Assembly: GCA_900316165.1 (NCBI GenBank)
Contig: ONBW01000002.1
Location: 100,770 to 164,769 of the forward strand
Source of the DNA: an uncultured Lachnospiraceae bacterium
GTDB taxonomy: Bacteria; Bacillota; Clostridia; Lachnospirales; Lachnospiraceae
Direction: 5' to 3'
Length of the DNA: 64,000 nucleotides
Position numbers and translations under genes: made by a program. The notes under the pieces are model-generated. The model saw nothing but the letters and a program-made list of their open reading frames with translations, was not told the DNA's origin and searched no databases. Below, piece by piece: positions 1,818 through 15,166 of the stretch (its first letter is position 1; every line of letters starts with the position of its first letter).

Positions 1818-1856
1818 GAGGCTTCTCCAGAATTTTCCGGAGAGGTCTTATTTTTT
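1818..1856 (+). terminator. Intrinsic terminator after dapL
   Basis: An 11-bp stem with some G-T pairs (1818-1828 against 1839-1849) with a 10-base loop is followed by a T-rich run. It separates the lysine genes from the Wadjet operon. Confidence 0.75.
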
Positions 1857-1870
1857 GCTGTCTTTTCAGC

Positions 1871-1899
1871 TTGACACAAATAGAAGACTGATTTACTCT
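1871..1899 (+). promoter_or_regulatory. Candidate promoter of the jetDABC operon
   Basis: A perfect TTGACA (1871-1876), a 17-base spacer and a weak TACTCT (1894-1899) sit directly after the dapL terminator and 40 bases before the jetD ATG. The -10 is a poor match, so this is tentative. Confidence 0.4.
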
Positions 1900-1938
1900 A
1901 TCAGAGAAAAGTCGTTGACATGCATAGAACAGAAATTT

Positions 1939-2955
1939 ATGAAGAAAATTACTTTAGATGAGCTCCTGTCAAAGGTGCGGGACAGGGATTACGGGAGTCA
2001 GTACGATTATATCACAGGTCTTCTCGAAAAAGGCAGGATAAAGCCGATGAAAACGGCAGCCACCAATGGCAAGAACCCGGCCCTGCCTCTTGGCTACTGG
2101 CTTATTGAAGAGAAGAAGGATTACAGCGGATACATAGATGAGCTGCGCTTTGGTTTAAATTACAGGATTTCCCCGACCTATTATCTGGACCATCTGGAGC
2201 AGTATGATAAGGACAGGGAGTATGTGCGCGCTCTTAGCGGCTATTTCGATAAGCATTCGGACAGGCTTATGGAGCAGATTTCTTTAAATGAGAGAAGCTA
2301 CGACATCTGGCAGAGGGAGAAGTTTCTTCAGAGGGAGCAGGGGCTTAGGATCTTAAAGAACTGCGGCATAGATACGGCGGATCTTAATTTTTACAGGACC
2401 TCTGAGCCGTTAGCCTACTATTCGGCCAGCCGGGAGCCTGGACAGACAGTGCTTATTATAGAGAATAAGGATACCTTTTACAGTATCAGGCGGATACTTA
2501 TCGAAAACAGTACAAGTGAAAAACCTCAGGAGATTCTGGGAGCGCAGATCGATACGGTTATCTATGGCGCCGGAAAGGGTATCTGGAAATCTCTAGATGA
2601 TTTCGAGATGTGTGTCGAGGACTATCTGACAGATTCAAAGGATAAATATTTATATTTCGGAGATCTCGATTTCGAGGGAATAGGTATTTTTCAAAAGGTG
2701 CAGGAAAAATTCCTTGATGCAGGCAGAAAAATCCTGCCGTTTAAAGAAGCCTATCAGAGGATGATGGATAAAGCTGGAGATACCGGATTTAAGCGGCTTC
2801 CAGAGACTAAAGAGAAACAGAACAGAAATATAGATCGTTCATTTTTTAGATATTTCGGTGAGGAATATGCCGTACAGATGGAGGAGATTCTTGATTCTGG
2901 AAAGTATATACCTCAGGAGATTTTAAATGTCACGGATTTCAAGGGAAGAGATTGA
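1939..2955 (+). CDS. jetD: Wadjet system protein JetD (Toprim-type nuclease subunit)
   Basis: Predicted DNA-cleaving subunit of the Wadjet plasmid-restriction complex. JetD family proteins carry a winged-helix arm region followed by a topoisomerase VI-like Toprim domain (DUF3322/DUF2220). Here the Toprim signature is visible as the glutamate strand VLIIENKD near residue 172 and the acidic strand LYFGDLDFEGIG near residue 240; these should be the metal ligands. The frame stays open upstream to a TTG at 1855, but the ATG at 1939 (MKKITLDELL) gives the expected 338-residue protein, and the extra upstream residues overlap the candidate promoter. No strong Shine-Dalgarno precedes this ATG. It is first in the operon, 18 bases ahead of jetA. 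Family assignment is strong; the start is less certain. Confidence 0.85.
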   Translation: MKKITLDELLSKVRDRDYGSQYDYITGLLEKGRIKPMKTAATNGKNPALPLGYWLIEEKKDYSGYIDELRFGLNYRISPTYYLDHLEQYDKDREYVRALSGYFDKHSDRLMEQISLNERSYDIWQREKFLQREQGLRILKNCGIDTADLNFYRTSEPLAYYSASREPGQTVLIIENKDTFYSIRRILIENSTSEKPQEILGAQIDTVIYGAGKGIWKSLDDFEMCVEDYLTDSKDKYLYFGDLDFEGIGIFQKVQEKFLDAGRKILPFKEAYQRMMDKAGDTGFKRLPETKEKQNRNIDRSFFRYFGEEYAVQMEEILDSGKYIPQEILNVTDFKGRD

Positions 2956-2973
2956 ATTTTTACGAGGAAAAAT

Positions 2974-4641
2974 ATGCAGTATGAATTTCTAGAGCAGTTC
3001 ACCCGCAGAATGCAGCACGTCGGTAAATACGCCGTTCTGATGCGGATGTCGATGAATAAACAGACCTGGAAGCAGTATGGGTTTGAGACCTTTGATGAGC
3101 AGGTCAACATACTTTTTGCGGTTCTGCTCTTTATCATGGAGCAGTCTCTAAAGGACGAGAACTGCACAGTTGATGACATCGGTGCATATATAGACGATCT
3201 CAATTCTTCTTATTTCCATAAGCAGATAAACTATGAGGAATGCCGGGATATGGCGGATTTCATCATAAATGTCATACTTTCAAACGACGGTCAGTCGATG
3301 ACCTTTGATGGCTATGATTTCGAATCCAGGCAGTACAAGGAGCTTATAATAAGCTATGTCAAAAACAAGGTCATCTACACCGACACCAATATCAAGCGTA
3401 CCTCGTACGAGCTGACAAATGACGGCTATGACCTGATGCTTTCGACTCTTGAAATCGAGGACAACCTGAAGCTCTCTGTTCAGGATATGATCTTCGAGCT
3501 TCATCTAAAGAAACAGAGTTACGATGAAGCTGTAAACGACATCAGAAACGAGTTTAATCTTCTCCATATACGGCTTCGTAAAATCGAGGACGCTATGACG
3601 AGGATAAGGAGGAATGCCTTAAGCTATTCCATTGATGAGTATTCCCAGATCCTAAATGACAACCTCGAGACGATAAGTGAGACCAAGGAAAAATTCCAGG
3701 CCAGACGAAAAATGATTCAGGAGAAGACCAGGGAATTCGAAGAGGCTGATATCGATGTGAATAATCTTTCGTCAGATAATGAAAAGACACTTGAAAATCT
3801 TCGGATAATTGATGATTACCTGGGCAGAGCCTTAGAAGAGCAGCAGAAAATCTTTGGCTCGCATTTAGACCTTAAGGCGCTCTACACTCATGAATTAGAG
3901 CAGCTCTCGCAGATGTCGGCGATAAAGAGATTTTCGCTGACTGCGGACTTCTATGATAAGATTCTAAAGAATCCGGGTTATCTCGACAGGACGGATATTT
4001 TTCTAAGGCCCCTGTTCGGCTGTGATCCTGACAAAGTATACGATCTCCGCAGGGCCTTGGCAACACAGAAGCCTATCACTGAGAGGGAAGAGACAGATGA
4101 GAGTGAGCTGATGGAAGAGGACATCGCTGATCAGGATAAGAAGCAGGAAGAGATCAGAAGGAAGCTTCGAATCTATGAGAAAAGTGTCAGGACTCTTCTT
4201 AAGGAGGCTGTCCACGGAAAAATCGAGCGTCTGAAGAGAGGCGTCGCCGGAAGCATAACCTTAAAGGAGCTTGAGGAGAAATGCAGGTCTGACCTGAAAT
4301 TAAAAAAGGCGATGATTCCGGATGTCGATAAATTCAAGGAGATAATGGTCGACCTGTTAAACAGCAGGGTTATGGATATAGAGCAGTTAGATAAGGAGAG
4401 GAAGGAAAATATTCAGGAGGAGCCCTCTTCCTTTTCACTGACTGAGACGGTGCTTGAGATCGCTGATTCGGTGAGGGACAGAAAAATTTTTATGGTAGAG
4501 GCTCTAAAAATAGATGACGGCAGCACCGCGGTGTTTACTGATATTCCTGACCTGAGCTCACATCCTTCGGATGATGAGGACAGTGGCAGGGATATCTGCT
4601 GCTCGAATGTGCTGATCCGTGTCAGATGGGAGGACAGATAA
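2974..4641 (+). CDS. jetA: Wadjet system protein JetA (kleisin-like subunit, probably type II)
   Basis: Predicted kleisin-like subunit that bridges the SMC-like JetC heads. The 555 residues begin with a compact helical segment (QYEFLEQFTRRMQHVGKYAV) and continue into long charged helices with predicted coiled-coil character (about residues 180-330), ending in an acidic tail. There is no catalytic motif. Assignment rests on position between jetD and jetB-jetC, size, and resemblance to the DUF5716 JetA family that I associate with type II Wadjet systems; that family name is from memory and was not searched. GAGGAAAA precedes the ATG. The stop codon abuts the jetB ATG, implying translational coupling and stoichiometric assembly of the complex. 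Confidence 0.8.
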   Translation: MQYEFLEQFTRRMQHVGKYAVLMRMSMNKQTWKQYGFETFDEQVNILFAVLLFIMEQSLKDENCTVDDIGAYIDDLNSSYFHKQINYEECRDMADFIINVILSNDGQSMTFDGYDFESRQYKELIISYVKNKVIYTDTNIKRTSYELTNDGYDLMLSTLEIEDNLKLSVQDMIFELHLKKQSYDEAVNDIRNEFNLLHIRLRKIEDAMTRIRRNALSYSIDEYSQILNDNLETISETKEKFQARRKMIQEKTREFEEADIDVNNLSSDNEKTLENLRIIDDYLGRALEEQQKIFGSHLDLKALYTHELEQLSQMSAIKRFSLTADFYDKILKNPGYLDRTDIFLRPLFGCDPDKVYDLRRALATQKPITEREETDESELMEEDIADQDKKQEEIRRKLRIYEKSVRTLLKEAVHGKIERLKRGVAGSITLKELEEKCRSDLKLKKAMIPDVDKFKEIMVDLLNSRVMDIEQLDKERKENIQEEPSSFSLTETVLEIADSVRDRKIFMVEALKIDDGSTAVFTDIPDLSSHPSDDEDSGRDICCSNVLIRVRWEDR

Positions 4642-5400
4642 ATGGCATTTGAATACGAGGATATAAGAAAAAGTCAGGAGATTTTTGCCTGCCTCTTGGA
4701 AAATCATGAGCTGAGTGAGGATGAGTCTGCGGATCTGTTTGATGCATATACTACAAGCGAGGCCGTGCAGAGCCTGACTAAATCTCAGGGAGATGCCTTA
4801 GACGCTGATATAGAGCAGTACGGCGATACTATCTATCTGATCCCAAGAGAGGACAACAGCTTCTTGGGGTATTCGAAGGCACAGCTTAAGAGGGAGCTGT
4901 GCAGATCTGATGCGACTGACAGGGACTATTATCTGAGCCAGTTCGCAATCCTGACTCTCCTTACGATGTTCTATGACGGGCAGGGTGTTACTGCTCACAC
5001 CAGAGATTTTATCAGGGCAGGAGAGCTGCAGAATACTATTTCTGAGAGACTTAAGGAGGGTGTCGAGAGATACGATGAAGAGAGACAGGAGGAGAGTGGG
5101 ATTGCCTTTACGAATATCGCGGAGGCTTATGAGAAGCTTAAGTCAGATGAGAGAGGCTCGAGGGCAAGGACTACGAAAGAGGGATTTCTGTACTATATTC
5201 TGAAATTTCTCGAGAGACAGGGGCTTATCGAGTATATAGAGCAGGACGATATGATAAAGACTACAAAGAAGATGGACCATTTCATGGACTGGAATCTGCT
5301 GAATAAAAACAACTACCAGAGAGTACTAGCTGTCTTTAATGAATTGGACGACCCACAGTCTTATAAAACGAAGAAAACTACAAGGGAGAAAAATAAATGA
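4642..5400 (+). CDS. jetB: Wadjet system protein JetB (KITE-like subunit)
   Basis: Predicted KITE-type winged-helix subunit, the counterpart of MukE or ScpB, that binds the kleisin JetA. The 252 residues are mostly helical with a C-terminal half resembling a winged helix (KEGFLYYILKFLERQGLIEYIEQDDMIK..., residues about 175-225), a pattern typical of DUF6063/DUF4194-like JetB proteins. There is no enzymatic motif. The gene starts on the base after the jetA stop and its last four bases (ATGA) contain the jetC start, so jetA, jetB and jetC are translationally linked. Identification depends largely on context; the size fits the family. Confidence 0.8.
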   Translation: MAFEYEDIRKSQEIFACLLENHELSEDESADLFDAYTTSEAVQSLTKSQGDALDADIEQYGDTIYLIPREDNSFLGYSKAQLKRELCRSDATDRDYYLSQFAILTLLTMFYDGQGVTAHTRDFIRAGELQNTISERLKEGVERYDEERQEESGIAFTNIAEAYEKLKSDERGSRARTTKEGFLYYILKFLERQGLIEYIEQDDMIKTTKKMDHFMDWNLLNKNNYQRVLAVFNELDDPQSYKTKKTTREKNK

Positions 5401-8400
5401 GCAGGATAAACCGTGTCAGGATTATTAATCTAAAATACAATCATGATGCAATTCAGATAGGTGATGAGACCTTTGACATGAACGGCGAGAATACTCTGCT
5501 TTCTCTTAGGAATGGAGGAGGTAAGACTGTCCTGGTGCAGATGATGATAGCACCATTCGTGCACAAGAGGTACAGAGATTTGAAGGACAGGGCATTTTCT
5601 TCGTATTTCAATACCTCAAAGCCATCATTTATTCTTGTCGAATGGAAGCTCGACGGTGGCGGCGGGTATGTGCTGACCGGCATGATGGTCAGGAGAAACC
5701 AGGATACTGATTCGCCTTTTGACCTAGATACTATTGGGTTTATCACAGAGTATGACGGAGAATCGAATCTCGATATCGCGCATATACCCCTTGCAGAAAA
5801 GACTTCAAAGGGTGAGGTCGTAAAAGGATACATACAGAGCAGACAGCTCTTTGATACCTGGAAAAAGGACTCGGGCGTTGATTTTTTCTATTATGATCTG
5901 AATCAGAGTACCCAGTCAAAGCAGTATTTCTCGAAATTAGAGGAGTACGATATTTTTTACAGAGAGTGGGAGGCTATAATCCACAAGATAAACCTCGAGG
6001 AATCGGGACTTTCAAATCTCTTCAGCGACTGCAAGAATGAGGAGGGGCTCGTTGAGAAATGGCTTCTCGATACGATTGAGAAAAAGCATAACAGGACAAA
6101 CGATTCGATGAAGGAATTCCGTGTGCTGACCGCCAAATATGTGAGGTCGTACAAGGATAACCAGTCGAAGATTCAAAAGAAGGAAGCTATCGAGGTCTTC
6201 AAGCAGGAGACTGAGGGCGTTAAATCTCTTGGCGAGGAGTACTTTAATGCTGAGGGAGAGATGGATGCAAAGAAAAATGAGATTGCGGCATTTCGTGATA
6301 CCCTATCAGAACTTCTCTCTGATAAAAATCAGGAGATCTCATCTCTTGAGGATGACAGGGATAAGCGAAATGACGATGTCAGATACTTAAATCATCAGAA
6401 GTATTCCTCGGATATCTATGCGACGGAGGACGAGATTGAGGAGAATCAGATAAAGCATGACGAATTAAATGCTGATTATGAGGATATAGAAAAGGAAAGA
6501 CAGGAGACTGAGAAAAATCACAATCTCTATATCTGTGCCGGTCAGCAGGACGACCTGAATGAGATTGTAAGAGACCTCAGGAATACTGAGGAGAGACTTA
6601 ATATCCAGCGGGAGAAAAATAAGGATTTAAAGCCAGAGCGTGAGAAAATCGGTTCAAGACTGTCTAAGTATTTCGGTGATAAGCTTGATGATGTAAAGCA
6701 TAGAACAGCTCACATTGAGCAGGATATAAAAAAGACTGAGGAGGAGATTTCTGGGTATAAGAAGGAACTGAGTGAGAAGGAGGCCTCAAAGCAGCAGGCT
6801 GCTATCGAGCTCGGTGCTTTAAATCAGAAAATCTCTGCTTTTGATGATGCCGAGGACCGTTTCAATGACAGGTATAAGACTGGCTTTACCAGGAATATCC
6901 TTGGTGTCTACGAGGAGGGCCTTTTAACTGATGCGAAGCTCTCAGGTGAGGAGCGCCTGAAAGAGGCTGAACAGAAAAAGAAGGATATCATTAAAGAAAA
7001 GGACAGCGCCAAAAAGGAACTGGATTTGCTTTCCCACAGGCTCGATGAGGAGAAGAAGCATCACACTCTGACCGAAAGTTCTCTTTCACACAAGAGAGAG
7101 GAGAAGCAGGAGCTCGACAGACAGCTCGAAGAAAGAAGAAGCATCATTAAATACTTCGATATTCCGGAGGAAAATATCCTGAACACTGAGGAGATTCTTA
7201 AATCCGCAGACACGAAGCTCAAGGCTAACGAAGAAGTCCGCAAGGCCATGGAAATCTCCTTAGTCGTCACGAAAAGAGAGCTGCGTCAGCTGAATGGCGA
7301 AGAGTCTATTGAGCTATCAGATGATTTCAAGAGAATGCTTGAGAACTCCGGAATCGATTTCGTCTACGGTATGGAATGGCTGATAAAAAACAGTAATACC
7401 GAAAGCCAGAACAAAATGCTCGTGAAGAGATTTCCTTTCCTCCCGTATTCCCTTATCATAAGCAGACATGATGCTGAGCATCTGACCAAAATAACCGATG
7501 CTGCCAACACCTCGATTCCTGTTCCGCTCATCATAAGAGAGGATATGAATGCGGGTGAGGAGGAGAAAAAGAAGCCTGCTGATCAGAATCTGATAAGCTT
7601 TGAGGGTGTAAGCTTCTATATAAGCTTCAACAGGGAGCTTCTTAACAGAAAGAAATTAAAAGAGCTCGTTGAGAAAAAGCAGTACGATATAGAGAAAGTC
7701 AAGGACCAGATTGCTTCGCGCGAGCAGGAATACCACACCTACTATGACAAGCGTGGAGTTATCGCAAACCAGACGGTGAATGCGGATACTTTTTCAAGGA
7801 TACAGACTGAGATTTCAGGACTTGAAGAGGAGCTGAAGCAGTCGCTTGAGACAATTGAGGGATTCAAGAAGCAGCAGGCTTCTCTTACTGAAATAATAAA
7901 CGAGGCATCTGCCAGAGAGAATAAGGCCGAGGAGCAGATCAGGCATTGCGGTGATTTTTTAAAGGATTTAGAGAGCTTTTCTGGTTCATATAACAGGTAT
8001 CTCAGAGTGCGTGATGAGCAGTCTTCTCTAGAAAAGTCATTTAAGAAGATTCAGGAGAGGATTAAACAGTTGGGCGATTTGTCTGATCAGGCGGCTTTAG
8101 ATCTGAGAAAGGCCGATGCTCTAAAGAGTCAGCTGACACAGCAGGCTGTTGAACTGACCCGCGAGGTTTCAAAGTATTCCCAGTATAAGGCTTCTGACGA
8201 TTCTGTCGCAGAGGAAGAGGCGGCTGAGCTTATTGCCCGGTATGAGGCTATCACTGCCAAATCTGCTGTAGAGGAAAAGGAACTCGAGGACAGGATTGCG
8301 GAGCAGACTAACCGGATGAACCGTAAGCTCAGAGAGCTGAATAACAGCGCTTCTGAGTATGGGTTCCTTCACGAGGAGTGGAAGGATGTCGTCTATGAGC

Positions 8401-9815
8401 AGGAAGCTGTCATGCGTCTTGAAAAAGAATCAAAGGCTCTTCTTGATCAGATGAAGGCGAAGCAGAAGGAGATTACTGCGGTTGACAGGAAGGCTGGTAA
8501 GCTTGAGGAGAGGGAAAAGACTCTCTATGCGAATATGAAAGAGGCTACCGGCATGGATGAGGCACTTCCGAAATCAGAGATTCCTGTGATGAATTTTGAT
8601 GAGGCTATTGTTGCGAAAAAGCATGAGATCAGGAATATTGAGAATCTGATAAAGGAAGCGGTGAACCGCTCTCATGTCTATGAGGAAAATCTCGCTGCTA
8701 TGGCGGAATTCGAAGATTTCTCAAGAGATGGGGACACTCAGCTCATGGATGATATCTCTGATCTCTCCTCTGAGCAGATCAGAAACAGACAGGGTAAGCT
8801 GAGACGTGACTTCCAGAGACTTAAAGAGAGACTTCAGAAGTATAAGTCTGACCTCGACAGGATGATTGCTGCTGTTATGCGTTCTGAGAAGCTTGCTGAT
8901 GACTTTTTCCAGAAGCCGCTTAATACTCTCTTGTCACTTACTGCCTCTGCTGACCAGCTTTTAAAGCAGCTGGATATAATTCTAAGTTCTTTTGACCAGC
9001 TGATCGAAAAGCTTATGGTAGACATTTCGTTTGTTGATAAAGAAGAGAATGAGTTGATTGAGCTCGTTTCTGAGTATATGCAGTCTGTCAATACTGACCT
9101 CGGAAAGATTGACGATAACTCTACTATCAATATCAGACAGCGTCCTGTCAAAATGCTCAAAATCTCCGTTCCTGACTGGGAAGAGAACGAAGCGCTTTAT
9201 CTATCGAGGCTCAAGGGGTATTTCGATGAGGTGACCAAGCACTGTATCGATCTTCTCGAGGAAAATAAAAATATCGAGGAGTACCTGGGTGCAAAGATAA
9301 GTACGAAGGCCCTTTATGATGCGGTGATCGGTATCAGCAATGTCTCCATCCACCTCTATAAAATCGAAGCGGAGCGTGAATATCCTATTACCTGGTCTGA
9401 TGTGGCGAAGAATTCCGGTGGTGAAGGCTTCCTCTCTGCCTTCGTTATCCTGACAAGTCTTCTCTATTATCTGCGCAGAAATGACAGTGATGTATTTTCT
9501 GATAGAAAAGAGAGCAAGGTGCTTATCATGGACAATCCTTTTGCCCAGACGAATGCTTCGCACCTTCTGATTCCGCTGATGGATTTTGCGAAGAAGACCA
9601 ATACGCAGCTGATCTGCCTGAGCGGTCTCGGCGGTGAGTCCATCTACAACCGCTTCGACAATATCTATGTGCTGAACCTGTTCTCATCCAGCCTCCGCAG
9701 CGGCCTGCAGTACCTGAAGGCTGAGCACGAACGCGGCAGCGACGCTGAAAGTATGATGGTGTCAAACATCCACGTGCAGGATATGGGAGATGGAGAGCAG
9801 ATGAAGCTGTTTTAG
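5397..9815 (+). CDS. jetC: Wadjet system protein JetC (SMC/MukB-like ATPase)
   Basis: Motor of the Wadjet complex, expected to extrude DNA loops and trigger cleavage of closed circular plasmids. The 1472 residues show an N-terminal ATPase lobe with P-loop LRNGGGKT (residues 37-44), long heptad-rich coiled coils on each side of a globular hinge-like segment (about residues 650-750), and a C-terminal lobe with the ABC signature NSGGEGFLSAF (about 1338) and Walker B VLIMDNPF (about 1375). The P-loop lacks the usual first glycine and the Walker B has asparagine where most SMC proteins have the catalytic glutamate. The start overlaps the jetB stop (ATGA). The 63-bp repeat array begins within 10 bases of the stop codon. 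Confidence 0.88.
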   Translation: MSRINRVRIINLKYNHDAIQIGDETFDMNGENTLLSLRNGGGKTVLVQMMIAPFVHKRYRDLKDRAFSSYFNTSKPSFILVEWKLDGGGGYVLTGMMVRRNQDTDSPFDLDTIGFITEYDGESNLDIAHIPLAEKTSKGEVVKGYIQSRQLFDTWKKDSGVDFFYYDLNQSTQSKQYFSKLEEYDIFYREWEAIIHKINLEESGLSNLFSDCKNEEGLVEKWLLDTIEKKHNRTNDSMKEFRVLTAKYVRSYKDNQSKIQKKEAIEVFKQETEGVKSLGEEYFNAEGEMDAKKNEIAAFRDTLSELLSDKNQEISSLEDDRDKRNDDVRYLNHQKYSSDIYATEDEIEENQIKHDELNADYEDIEKERQETEKNHNLYICAGQQDDLNEIVRDLRNTEERLNIQREKNKDLKPEREKIGSRLSKYFGDKLDDVKHRTAHIEQDIKKTEEEISGYKKELSEKEASKQQAAIELGALNQKISAFDDAEDRFNDRYKTGFTRNILGVYEEGLLTDAKLSGEERLKEAEQKKKDIIKEKDSAKKELDLLSHRLDEEKKHHTLTESSLSHKREEKQELDRQLEERRSIIKYFDIPEENILNTEEILKSADTKLKANEEVRKAMEISLVVTKRELRQLNGEESIELSDDFKRMLENSGIDFVYGMEWLIKNSNTESQNKMLVKRFPFLPYSLIISRHDAEHLTKITDAANTSIPVPLIIREDMNAGEEEKKKPADQNLISFEGVSFYISFNRELLNRKKLKELVEKKQYDIEKVKDQIASREQEYHTYYDKRGVIANQTVNADTFSRIQTEISGLEEELKQSLETIEGFKKQQASLTEIINEASARENKAEEQIRHCGDFLKDLESFSGSYNRYLRVRDEQSSLEKSFKKIQERIKQLGDLSDQAALDLRKADALKSQLTQQAVELTREVSKYSQYKASDDSVAEEEAAELIARYEAITAKSAVEEKELEDRIAEQTNRMNRKLRELNNSASEYGFLHEEWKDVVYEQEAVMRLEKESKALLDQMKAKQKEITAVDRKAGKLEEREKTLYANMKEATGMDEALPKSEIPVMNFDEAIVAKKHEIRNIENLIKEAVNRSHVYEENLAAMAEFEDFSRDGDTQLMDDISDLSSEQIRNRQGKLRRDFQRLKERLQKYKSDLDRMIAAVMRSEKLADDFFQKPLNTLLSLTASADQLLKQLDIILSSFDQLIEKLMVDISFVDKEENELIELVSEYMQSVNTDLGKIDDNSTINIRQRPVKMLKISVPDWEENEALYLSRLKGYFDEVTKHCIDLLEENKNIEEYLGAKISTKALYDAVIGISNVSIHLYKIEAEREYPITWSDVAKNSGGEGFLSAFVILTSLLYYLRRNDSDVFSDRKESKVLIMDNPFAQTNASHLLIPLMDFAKKTNTQLICLSGLGGESIYNRFDNIYVLNLFSSSLRSGLQYLKAEHERGSDAESMMVSNIHVQDMGDGEQMKLF

Positions 9816-9824
9816 TCTGTGGAT

Positions 9825-10268
9825 TTCAGTACTATATGGCGATTTGTGCGTTTTGGTACGGAAATTAAGCTGCCTTTGGCTGTCATTTTCCGTACCATAT
9901 GGCGGTTTATGCTTATTGGTACGGAATTCTTGACTTAACCAGCCGCTATTTTCCGTACCAAACACCTATTTATACCAAATGGTACGGAATTAATATCATC
10001 TCTAGCTGTGGATTTCCGTACCACACGCCGTTTCTTGCCATTTGGTACGGAATTCATCTCATCTATGTCTGTCAATTTCCGTACCACACTACGAAATTTG
10101 CCAAATGGTACGGAATTCTTGTCATCTCTGGCTGTAGTTTTCCGTACCAAACACTGATAATTGTTAAATGGTACGGAAATCAAGGCAAAACAGGCTGCTG
10201 GCTTCCGTACCATACGCCTTCAAGAACGAAATGGTACGGAAACAAGCGGCTCCGCGCACGGCTGTAAC
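9825..10268 (+). repeat. Tandem 63-bp array of alternating inverted 10-bp arms (array 1)
   Basis: The arm TGGTACGGAA occurs with its GGTACGGA core starting at 9855, 9918, 9981, 10044, 10107, 10170 and 10233, exactly 63 bases apart. The complementary arm TTCCGTACCA starts at 9888, 9951, 10014, 10077, 10140 and 10203, also exactly 63 apart, with a decayed copy at 9825. The offsets alternate 33 and 30 bases. The arms are nearly invariant while the 24- and 21-base spacers vary in sequence but not in length (one spacer class keeps a loose TCATCTCTGGCTGT). The array starts 10 bases after the jetC stop. It resembles no CRISPR: arms alternate in orientation and spacers are related to each other. Confidence 0.93.
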
Positions 10269-10575
10269 TATTCTTGGGAGTCAGATTCAGTGGGAAGGAA
10301 CAGTTAGTCGGGGGCCTGGCCTCGACGTAGTTCACAGGTAATGCAAAACTAAAAAGCCCCGACGGCACGACCAAGAGCCAACTGTTCTTGAGTTCATCGC
10401 CGTCGGGGTAAATAAATATAACGCATTGCCTTTAAGCTGTGTCAATCCTGGCGTCACTTGCCAAGCATCATCAATTACGCCGGAATAGCAGTGCGTTAGC
10501 ACTATTTATCATTATTATCAAATACCAGTATATCAGAAAATGATTTTCAGACGTATGGTTGCAGATAACAAATTA
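10269..10575. other. Non-coding interval between array 1 and the nuclease gene
   Basis: No convincing reading frame. It holds the minus-strand structured region described separately (10356-10498) and about 75 bases of AT-rich sequence next to the nuclease stop codon. A GAACAGTT at about 10298 is complementary to AACTGTTC at about 10380, a possible further long-range pairing. Confidence 0.6.
10356..10498 (-). ncRNA. Candidate structured RNA ending in an intrinsic terminator
   Basis: Read on the minus strand, this segment forms an outer stem TAACGCACTGC/GCAATGCGTTA (10498-10488 with 10429-10419, one mismatch) enclosing a GGCGT/ACGCC stem, then a strong terminator-like hairpin with a 10-bp CCCCGACGGC/GCCGTCGGGG stem (10407-10398 with 10366-10357), an inner CAAGA/TCTTG stem, and a CTTTTTAG tail. 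It may be the structured 3' end of the nuclease transcript or a separate small RNA. I do not recognise it as a known riboswitch or ribozyme class, and no clear promoter was found for it alone. Confidence 0.4.
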
Positions 10576-11364
10576 TTATACATAAAACTCATTGATAATC
10601 TGCTTAATTATTCCCATATCAAGATGCACGTTCTCACTTTCGTAAGTCAGAATAAGCTGCTTTCCTTGTATGAAACCATTCTTCTCATAAGCGTGTATTT
10701 TTTGAAGATTTTTTAAGAGATATTCGCTGTCTTCCAGCATTCCTAGATGTTCATGATAGAATACTTCCCTGGTCCGCTTGTTTAACACAGTGAAATCAGG
10801 ATAAACATAGCCGTATCCTTTCAAATCAAGGCGGGCTTCGTATCTGAAAGGGACACCTGCTTTCTCTAATTCATTGGCAATTAAAGATTCTGACTTCGAA
10901 CGATATTTATTCGTGCCATCAGATGTGTACTCCTCACTGGTTTCAAGATTTAGAGCAGTAAATGTCTCAGATGTCCAGCGCTGTGCATATGTTTCATCAT
11001 CCATGCAGACTGGCTCGACCAGATCCTGCTTCAAAACTGGCATCTGTTTGTAGACATCTTCAACGGAAACCTCCGAATCGTACTTCAAAAACTGGTTGAT
11101 GTGTTGAAGCTCTTTTTGAGCAATTGATAGTAGCTGGGAATAATAGTCCTTCGAAGCCAGTTTACCAATCATAGTACTGTCATTTAGGTAGGTGCGTTTT
11201 CTGCTTGAGCTGTCGTAAAAATGAAACTGAGGAACGCCATGCGACCGTGATGCTACCATCCGCCCTTCAGGTGCTGATTTGAGCTCTGCGTTACATGATG
11301 AAATGATTTCTTCCAGATACTTCTTCCTGGAAATAAGTGATGTGAAAATCTCTTCCCTTGTCAT
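10576..11364 (-). CDS. PD-(D/E)XK nuclease-like protein
   Basis: Probable DNA-acting or Vsr/DUF559-like nuclease of unknown target. The C-terminal half carries the ordered motif set of the PD-(D/E)XK fold: glutamate in RSKSESLIANELEKAG (about residue 159), PDFTVL with the metal-binding aspartate (about 188), and the strand FYHEHLGM (about 203), followed by a helix with lysines. The N-terminal 100 residues are helical and may bind a partner. The ATG is preceded by AAGGGGGAG. The gene is bracketed on both sides by the 63-bp repeat arrays and lies next to a Wadjet operon, suggesting a defence or mobile role, which is inference. A leader of about 165 bases precedes it. Confidence 0.7.
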   Translation of the reverse strand: MTREEIFTSLISRKKYLEEIISSCNAELKSAPEGRMVASRSHGVPQFHFYDSSSRKRTYLNDSTMIGKLASKDYYSQLLSIAQKELQHINQFLKYDSEVSVEDVYKQMPVLKQDLVEPVCMDDETYAQRWTSETFTALNLETSEEYTSDGTNKYRSKSESLIANELEKAGVPFRYEARLDLKGYGYVYPDFTVLNKRTREVFYHEHLGMLEDSEYLLKNLQKIHAYEKNGFIQGKQLILTYESENVHLDMGIIKQIINEFYV

Positions 11365-11594: not shown

Positions 11595-11812
11595 GGTACC
11601 GATTTTTGGATGTCTGTCATTTTCCGTACCATACGATGATATTTGCCAAATGGTACGGAACAAAAGTCGACTTTGTCTGTCATTTTCCGTACCAGTCACT
11701 TATTTTTGTCATTTAGTACGGAAAGCAATCAGAATCAGGTTGCTAGCTTCCATACCACATGCCTTCAAGAACGAATTGGTACGGAAACAAGCGGCTCCGC
11801 ACACGACGTCAA
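11595..11812 (+). repeat. Second array of the 63-bp repeat family (array 2)
   Basis: Arms of the same family occur at 11595 (degenerate), 11622, 11652, 11685, 11715, 11748 and 11778, keeping the alternating 30/33-base offsets except for one 27-base step (11595 to 11622), which looks like a 6-base deletion. Several arms have point changes (AGTACGGA at 11715, TTCCATACC at 11748). The last ~70 bases (11735-11806) match the end of array 1 (10190-10260) closely. The array ends about 9 bases from the stop codon of the phosphoesterase gene. Confidence 0.9.
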
Positions 11813-15124: not shown

Positions 15125-15166
15125 TTTCCGTACTAAACGACAAGAAATGGCGAATGGTACGGAAAT
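15125..15166 (+). repeat. Solitary arm pair of the 63-bp repeat family
   Basis: TTTCCGTACT (core from 15126) and ATGGTACGGAAA (core from 15156) sit exactly 30 bases apart, the same offset as in both arrays, but without neighbouring units. Confidence 0.8.

Follow-up and report, generated by a model that had tools for sequence, protein, structure and literature searches.

The window analysed here, a stretch of 64,000 nucleotides from an uncultured Lachnospiraceae bacterium, carries a family of short inverted repeats on both sides of a single gene, laid out as follows.

9825..10241, no strand: array 1, seven 39-bp inverted-pair units TTCCGTACCA-N19-TGGTACGGAA with a period of 63 bp and a linker of 24 bp.
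10242..10266, no strand: edge sequence ACAAGCGGCTCCGCGCACGGC, closely resembling the right end of array 2.
10576..11364, minus strand: gene of a 262-aa protein like the PD-(D/E)XK nuclease family, with array 1 downstream and array 2 upstream.
11622..11786, no strand: array 2, three units of the array 1 family, period 63 bp.
15126..15164, no strand: single 39-bp unit with 1 mismatch, in an intergenic spacer.

Array 1 starts 9 bp past the stop codon of a JetC-like gene. It is immediately preceded by a Wadjet type III-like operon (window 1855-9815), where PADLOC matches JetB3 at 4642-5400 and JetC3 at 5397-9815, and where the ORFs at 1855-2955 and 2974-4641 lie at places fitting candidate JetD and JetA.

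The strictly phased 63-bp array of alternating inverted arms described in the earlier note is real, the period being exactly 63 bp in 6 of 6 steps. Seven exact TGGTACGGAA arms alternate with six exact TTCCGTACCA arms from 9854 to 10241, and a decayed arm with 2 mismatches (TTCAGTACTA, at 9825) is the first arm of the array, so that the counts of seven, six and one decayed arm stand; the offsets of 33 and 30 bases given with them fit only the inner 9 bases of the arms, the 10-base arms starting 34 and 29 bases apart. Besides the array at 9825-10241, the window has three units at 11622-11786 and one at 15126-15164, neither of which had been listed. Across the window, 26 arm matches are found at no more than one mismatch as against 2.11 expected, with a maximum of 7 across 100 shuffles. 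We define the unit as TTCCGTACCA-N19-TGGTACGGAA because it is found singly and because arrays start with TTCCGTACCA and finish with TGGTACGGAA, the exceptions being additional arms, decayed ones at the ends of some arrays and an intact one at contig C39. Since this unit stands alone and orders the arrays, the alternative hairpins with either neighbouring arm that had been proposed are an unlikely logic.

The edge sequence at 10242..10266 is similar, by eye, to the ACGCGGAGC arms of another array family of the same genus. A further arm family, GCTCCGCG/CGCGGAGC, was recognised by eye at the edges of other families' arrays, namely at L132, L134, in the flanks of the G012 arrays in L246 and L250, and at window 10242-10266, as if arrays were nested in or adjoined one another. 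A 122-aa ORF (window 9899-10267) reads through array 1 because 63 is a multiple of 3, and ORFs of this type probably end up in annotations as spurious hypothetical proteins; a coding reading of the array was rejected because the periods of other families, such as 52, 53, 64 and 71 bp, are not divisible by 3. Rfam gave no match in the window. A second repeated element, 80% identical between window 10312-10431 and L033 2228-2343 (19 stretches of the window's own genome compared), lies near units of the array 1 family at both places, and the RNA structure predicted for 10300-10440 is strong (-59.4 kcal/mol, z -6.8).

For the 262-aa protein, Pfam gives nothing below E 0.01, NCBIfam gives no match and PHROGs none that convinces (best E 0.012), and the relative at L099 matches one PHROGs family of unknown function at 1.6e-4. 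Residues 152-259 of the window protein match the C-terminal domain of PDC-S68 in PADLOC, to the end of the model (E 2.4e-23). In a 26-member alignment, from which the broken L130 and L133 were left out, the invariant positions of the profile are Y59, R155, S156, E159, Y175, E176, P189, D190, F191, E205, H206, G208 and Y215; among them E159, D190, E205 and H206, the last directly following E205, are of catalytic type and invariant in 26 of 26 members, and K222 is nearly so. The AlphaFold model of the window protein (pLDDT 90.9, pTM 0.68) predicts a helix, three strands and a long helix followed by a further fold. Among the first 30 Foldseek matches of this fold are Bax1, DrdV, R2 and MunI, which we take to share the PD-(D/E)XK fold, all weak (best E 2.6e-3), together with unrelated helical or coiled-coil folds such as prefoldin. 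By this predicted structure, the product resembles a PD-(D/E)XK-like nuclease family that has no model in Pfam or NCBIfam.

Relatives of the gene were found in 17 of 61 genomes and, within the window's own family sampled at one genome per genus, in 107 of 299 (94 with a best E below 1e-30, the 13 weaker ones perhaps matching the C-terminal domain only). At the level of the phylum they occur in 13 of 398 genomes; five of these belong to the window's family and carry full-length relatives, and the other eight match in the C-terminal part only, mostly inside longer reading frames. Carriage of the gene by plasmids or phages was rejected on few and mostly partial matches: three plasmid records match 29-39% of the protein, three phage records match, one of them over 94% within an unannotated 4.2-kb faecal record, and nine viral loci match residues 155-261 only. 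Six diverged homologues (L135, L136 and L138-L141) were seen in G043, a genome from a different family within the order; upstream of the gene at L138 lies an array of 2.6 copies with a period of 54 bp, and L139 has one of 2.2 copies at 52 bp, the others having no clear array, and these homologues could be an ancestral form.

The gene is linked to tandem arrays. Our set derives from 34 loci (35 rows, two of which are pieces of one gene), 27 of which were kept including the window after leaving out the six distant G043 genes and one 1221-aa fusion; to these were added L079 and 40 rows from a list showing more than 150, namely the new rows in order to G260:C7 (35), then three from G318, G326:C19 and G225:C8, with G100, G321 and G249 passed over. 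At 49 of 68 loci the gene has a tandem array of period 40-130 bp no farther than 1.5 kb away, on one side or on both, as against 3 of 144 control chunks of 1.5 kb, one of these three being a 53-bp array of 8.5 copies that may be a true array near L110. The arrays are usually upstream of the gene: the array-bearing flanks number 62 of at most 136, 43 of them upstream and 19 downstream. Where at least 450 bp of upstream sequence is available, an array was found at 46 of 57 loci and none at the threshold used at the remaining 11; eight of the 19 loci without an array have their upstream stretch cut short. Clear inverted arms appear in the consensus of 34 of the 49 arrays, and 15 have no clear inverted arm pair. 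The arm sequences vary by locus, and even the paralogous genes in the window's genome have different arms. Thus the repeats are accompanied by a gene whose product is of a DNA-binding type, in line with the protein-binding array that had been suggested.

The exact unit of the window was found neither in IMG/VR nor in 60 relatives. Among one-genome-per-species contigs, in a scan that may omit records near the window's genome, it occurs on two contigs only, both with a period of 65 bp; at L079 a homologous gene (35% identity over 113 aa) adjoins the array, and at L078 no homologous gene was seen within the 4.6 kb examined. The looser pattern GTACCA-N19-TGGTAC matched 47 of 299 family genomes, with at most 3 matches per genome except for 18 in the window's own, and we regard these matches as chance because, by eye, they are not commoner than a reversed control pattern.

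The periods of these arrays are not spread evenly. When each locus is represented by its strongest array (secondary hits of 41-49 bp, which are weaker and in several cases downstream and perhaps coding, were excluded), the period is 50-54, 61-65, 71-75, 84-86 or 94 bp, with none between. When proteins were collapsed at 50% identity (25 clusters, 29 values), which is mildly circular as the collapsing used classes from a 10.5 step, and with the periods of L110, L120, L123, L175 and L209 set by hand where multiples or halves had been misread, the periods fit a modulus of 10.40 bp best (R 0.77, a value that none of 5000 uniform simulations reached). When the proteins were left uncollapsed and the 53 class was omitted, the best modulus came to 10.65 with p 0.0001 (22 values, the misread L120 and L209 left out). 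Furthermore, the arrays of related proteins differ by whole turns: the window has a period of 63 bp as against 53, 52 and 53 bp beside proteins 60-61% identical, L196 has 62 as against 73 at L191 (proteins 65% identical), and L123 has 64 as against 84 at both L120 and L124 (proteins 55-57% identical), while at L132 one array mixes periods of 52 and 72 bp. These shifts of gene-linked periods in helical-turn steps agree with the fixed geometry and helical phasing read from array 1 in the earlier note, and with its protein-binding array.

The steps are absorbed by the linker, the arm-to-arm distance within the unit being 29.4 bp (sd 2.3). As the core was taken to be the arm pair nearest to 30 bp apart, this constancy is biased for the 53 class; the choice is clear for the nine families with a period of at least 71 bp because the alternative distance there is 39-65 bp. 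In 34 consensus cores, the A/T content peaks at the centre and again about 9-10 bp to each side, with a peak period of 9.5 (0 of 20000 in a rotation null that scanned fewer periods than the observed value did) and p 5e-5 for centre versus troughs. This pattern fits a protein-bound bent duplex, binding being what we infer from it.

The period class follows protein relatedness (r 0.22, p 0.0004), so the loci are not independent. No co-divergence of arm similarity with protein identity was detected over 34 loci (Mantel r 0.07, p 0.16). If arms change this fast, they should correlate weakly with the proteins, which excuses the result and is not evidence. This missing correlation is, together with the lack of a resolved insertion described below, the strongest of our negative results.

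The sequences of the arms bear on whether they act as duplex DNA or as RNA. We compared 133 distinct units from three families, collected at loose thresholds and including some decayed ones; their arm cells (arms only) show 6 compensatory changes, 35 G-T or T-G pairs and 78 mismatches. In G012, 16 of 70 distinct units have a first arm like TTACGTACT opposite AGTCCGTAA at the relevant position, which leaves both strands mismatched there. Pointing the other way, two positions of the G318 arms are co-changed in 2 units each, as against 0.1-0.2 expected. Since changes are rarely compensated, the arms look like half-sites in duplex DNA and not like RNA stems, and on balance, from their sequences, they look like degenerate half-sites for a duplex-DNA binding protein. 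This disfavours the structured-RNA role that had been listed among the possibilities.

The repeats are also dispersed. The window's genome holds 50 exact arms that are not randomly spaced, 42 of them within 39-bp units, one (C39:177) abutting such a unit and seven in no unit (C27, C36, C50:24932, C55, C64, C72 and C109), as compared with about 4.9 expected by chance. This arm family occupies 11 places in the stretches fetched from the genome, and a second family, located next to the C107 paralogue, gives 52 unit matches whose spacing within arrays is mostly 53 bp. The one-contig genome G318 has arrays with the same arms at 6 loci (period 72), and G012 has 82 unit matches (period 52), so that dispersed arrays of the same arm and period are seen for four arm families in three genomes. 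All 27 array places checked, from three families, lie between ORFs; an ORF reads through the array at 7 of these 27, which is taken for chance.

At C84, a single unit lies between two genes that are presumably topoisomerase-like. The congeners in which both flanks could be located lack this unit (11 of 11), and G006, the twelfth congener, has no match there. The spacer is too diverged to reveal a boundary or a duplication. In four congeners (L259, L261, L262 and L266) it is occupied by other inserts and exceeds the expected length by about 76, 171, 321 and 128 bp, and G010 has a C84-type site on two contigs, one with and one without an insert. The array at the G318 locus is unmatched in its 22 congeners, mostly with one flank only. 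As neither locus gave an exact boundary, mobility rests on dispersal and species specificity and not on an observed insertion.

Several known systems were compared with this one. CRISPR was rejected, as in the earlier note, since 10-base arms alternate and the linkers are related, with neither a uniform repeat nor unique spacers. A type III toxin-antitoxin system was rejected for want of a ToxN/CptN/TenpN-type match in Pfam or NCBIfam. The PDC-S68 candidate defence proteins of PADLOC share the homologous C-terminal nuclease-like domain, but their models are multidomain proteins of about 1200 aa, whereas the protein here has 262 aa, a separate N-terminal domain and an array beside its gene. The BIME/REP arrays of enterobacteria also have regularly spaced REPs of alternating orientation, but arms, period rule and associated gene all differ here.

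TIGR-Tas loci (PMC12045711) have dual-repeat or stem-loop arrays with 36-nt processed guide units, and resemble our loci in having a single effector gene beside alternating short repeats of locus-variable sequence; they differ in that ours have inverted half-sites, related linkers instead of unique spacers and a period of 50-94 bp instead of 36-nt guide units. TIGR-Tas was ruled out by the protein, no member of the 26-member alignment matching a Nop domain in Pfam, and by the array logic, linkers being similar between units.

A further close likeness is to REPIN-RAYT, which combines REP doublets with a Y1/HUH tyrosine transposase (PMC3116915). Both have an inverted doublet as the unit, a cluster beside the enzyme gene, one private repeat per enzyme and dispersed intergenic copies, whereas here the enzyme is PD-(D/E)XK-like and not HUH, ordered tandem arrays are frequent, the period is helically quantised and the arms are little compensated. 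The inverted doublet is indeed the dispersed unit in our genomes. A RAYT or Y1 partner, for which the earlier note proposed a scan, is not supported: Y1 matches are found only on C112, C15 and C81, contigs that lack exact arms, and the gene linked to the repeats is PD-(D/E)XK-like; nor do the arms keep hairpins by compensation (6 compensatory as against 78 mismatched cells). As both the linked-HUH and the hairpin-compensation tests fail, the system is taken as like REPIN-RAYT in population structure without being a member.

We therefore favour, with moderate confidence, a one-gene system working like REPIN-RAYT, in which a PD-(D/E)XK-like nuclease has private inverted-pair repeats and the array is its cognate repeat. 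In such a system, the 39-bp unit would serve as a site in duplex DNA whose two inverted half-sites lie about 29 bp from each other, and it would be bound by a dimer through the N-terminal domain with bending of the A/T-rich centre. Adjacent dimers would stack along one face of the helix, and the linkers would change by whole turns because neighbouring dimers so stack. The nuclease may cut at units, whereby units would be copied or recombined into other intergenic sites and expanded in tandem, the gene not being multiplied with the repeats. This would work as REPIN-RAYT does, with an unrelated enzyme and double-stranded sites. More tentatively, and at slightly less than even odds in our judgement, this may be a new class of element in which a helically phased PD-(D/E)XK multimer on tandem inverted-pair sites copies these sites via duplex breaks, with whole-turn spacing under selection.

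Three other explanations have to be weighed against this one. The protein could sit on phased arrays as a chromosome organiser or regulator that also controls its own gene, a DNA architecture useful to the host in which the nuclease fold would be used rarely or only structurally and the arrays would spread by ordinary recombination. Of the 40 strongest upstream arrays, 31 stop no more than 163 bp from the gene match, as an operator would, helical phasing suits cooperative assembly, and the intergenic position of the 27 array places agrees with it as well. We nevertheless hold this explanation to be unlikely: the catalytic-type residues are invariant, and a selfish element fits better because the gene is patchy (107/299), the arms are locus-specific and the tested arrays were not found in congeners.

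Less probable still is an RNA function, in which transcribed hairpins would guide or inhibit the nuclease in the manner of TIGR stem-loop arrays or of type III toxin-antitoxin RNA. The arms are able to pair, the co-changed positions of G318 would suit it, and a gene with adjacent locus-specific repeats resembles TIGR loci (PMC12045711), but most arm changes are uncompensated, linkers are related and are not unique spacers, single-stranded RNA gives no reason for helical-turn spacing, and neither a Nop or known toxin family match nor an Rfam match in the window was obtained. We consider it very improbable, finally, that these are ordinary MITE or REP-like repeats, non-autonomous and mobilised by some unrelated transposase, for example of the IS200/Y1 type, while the nuclease gene rides along as a passenger; the window's genome does have Y1 matches, but none shares a contig with an exact arm, and the nuclease gene tracks with arrays of many arm sequences across many genera.

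A PD-(D/E)XK gene with such arrays is undescribed in the open-access papers searched by title and start of abstract, and the suggestion of a new repeat class holds within Pfam, NCBIfam, Rfam and these papers. The one-gene system of nuclease and private repeats thus looks like an undescribed repeat-plus-enzyme mobile system. To our knowledge, short intergenic repeats are present in many bacterial genomes without an explanation, and one widespread sort of them is here tied to one particular enzyme family in which the arm sequence is private to each gene. Specificity and spread can therefore be tested with a single protein and a 39-bp oligonucleotide. If true, this would solve independently, and with duplex DNA, the problem for which RAYTs use single-stranded hairpins, and a natural set of arrays whose sequence has varied while helical spacing was kept would directly evidence selection on DNA geometry.
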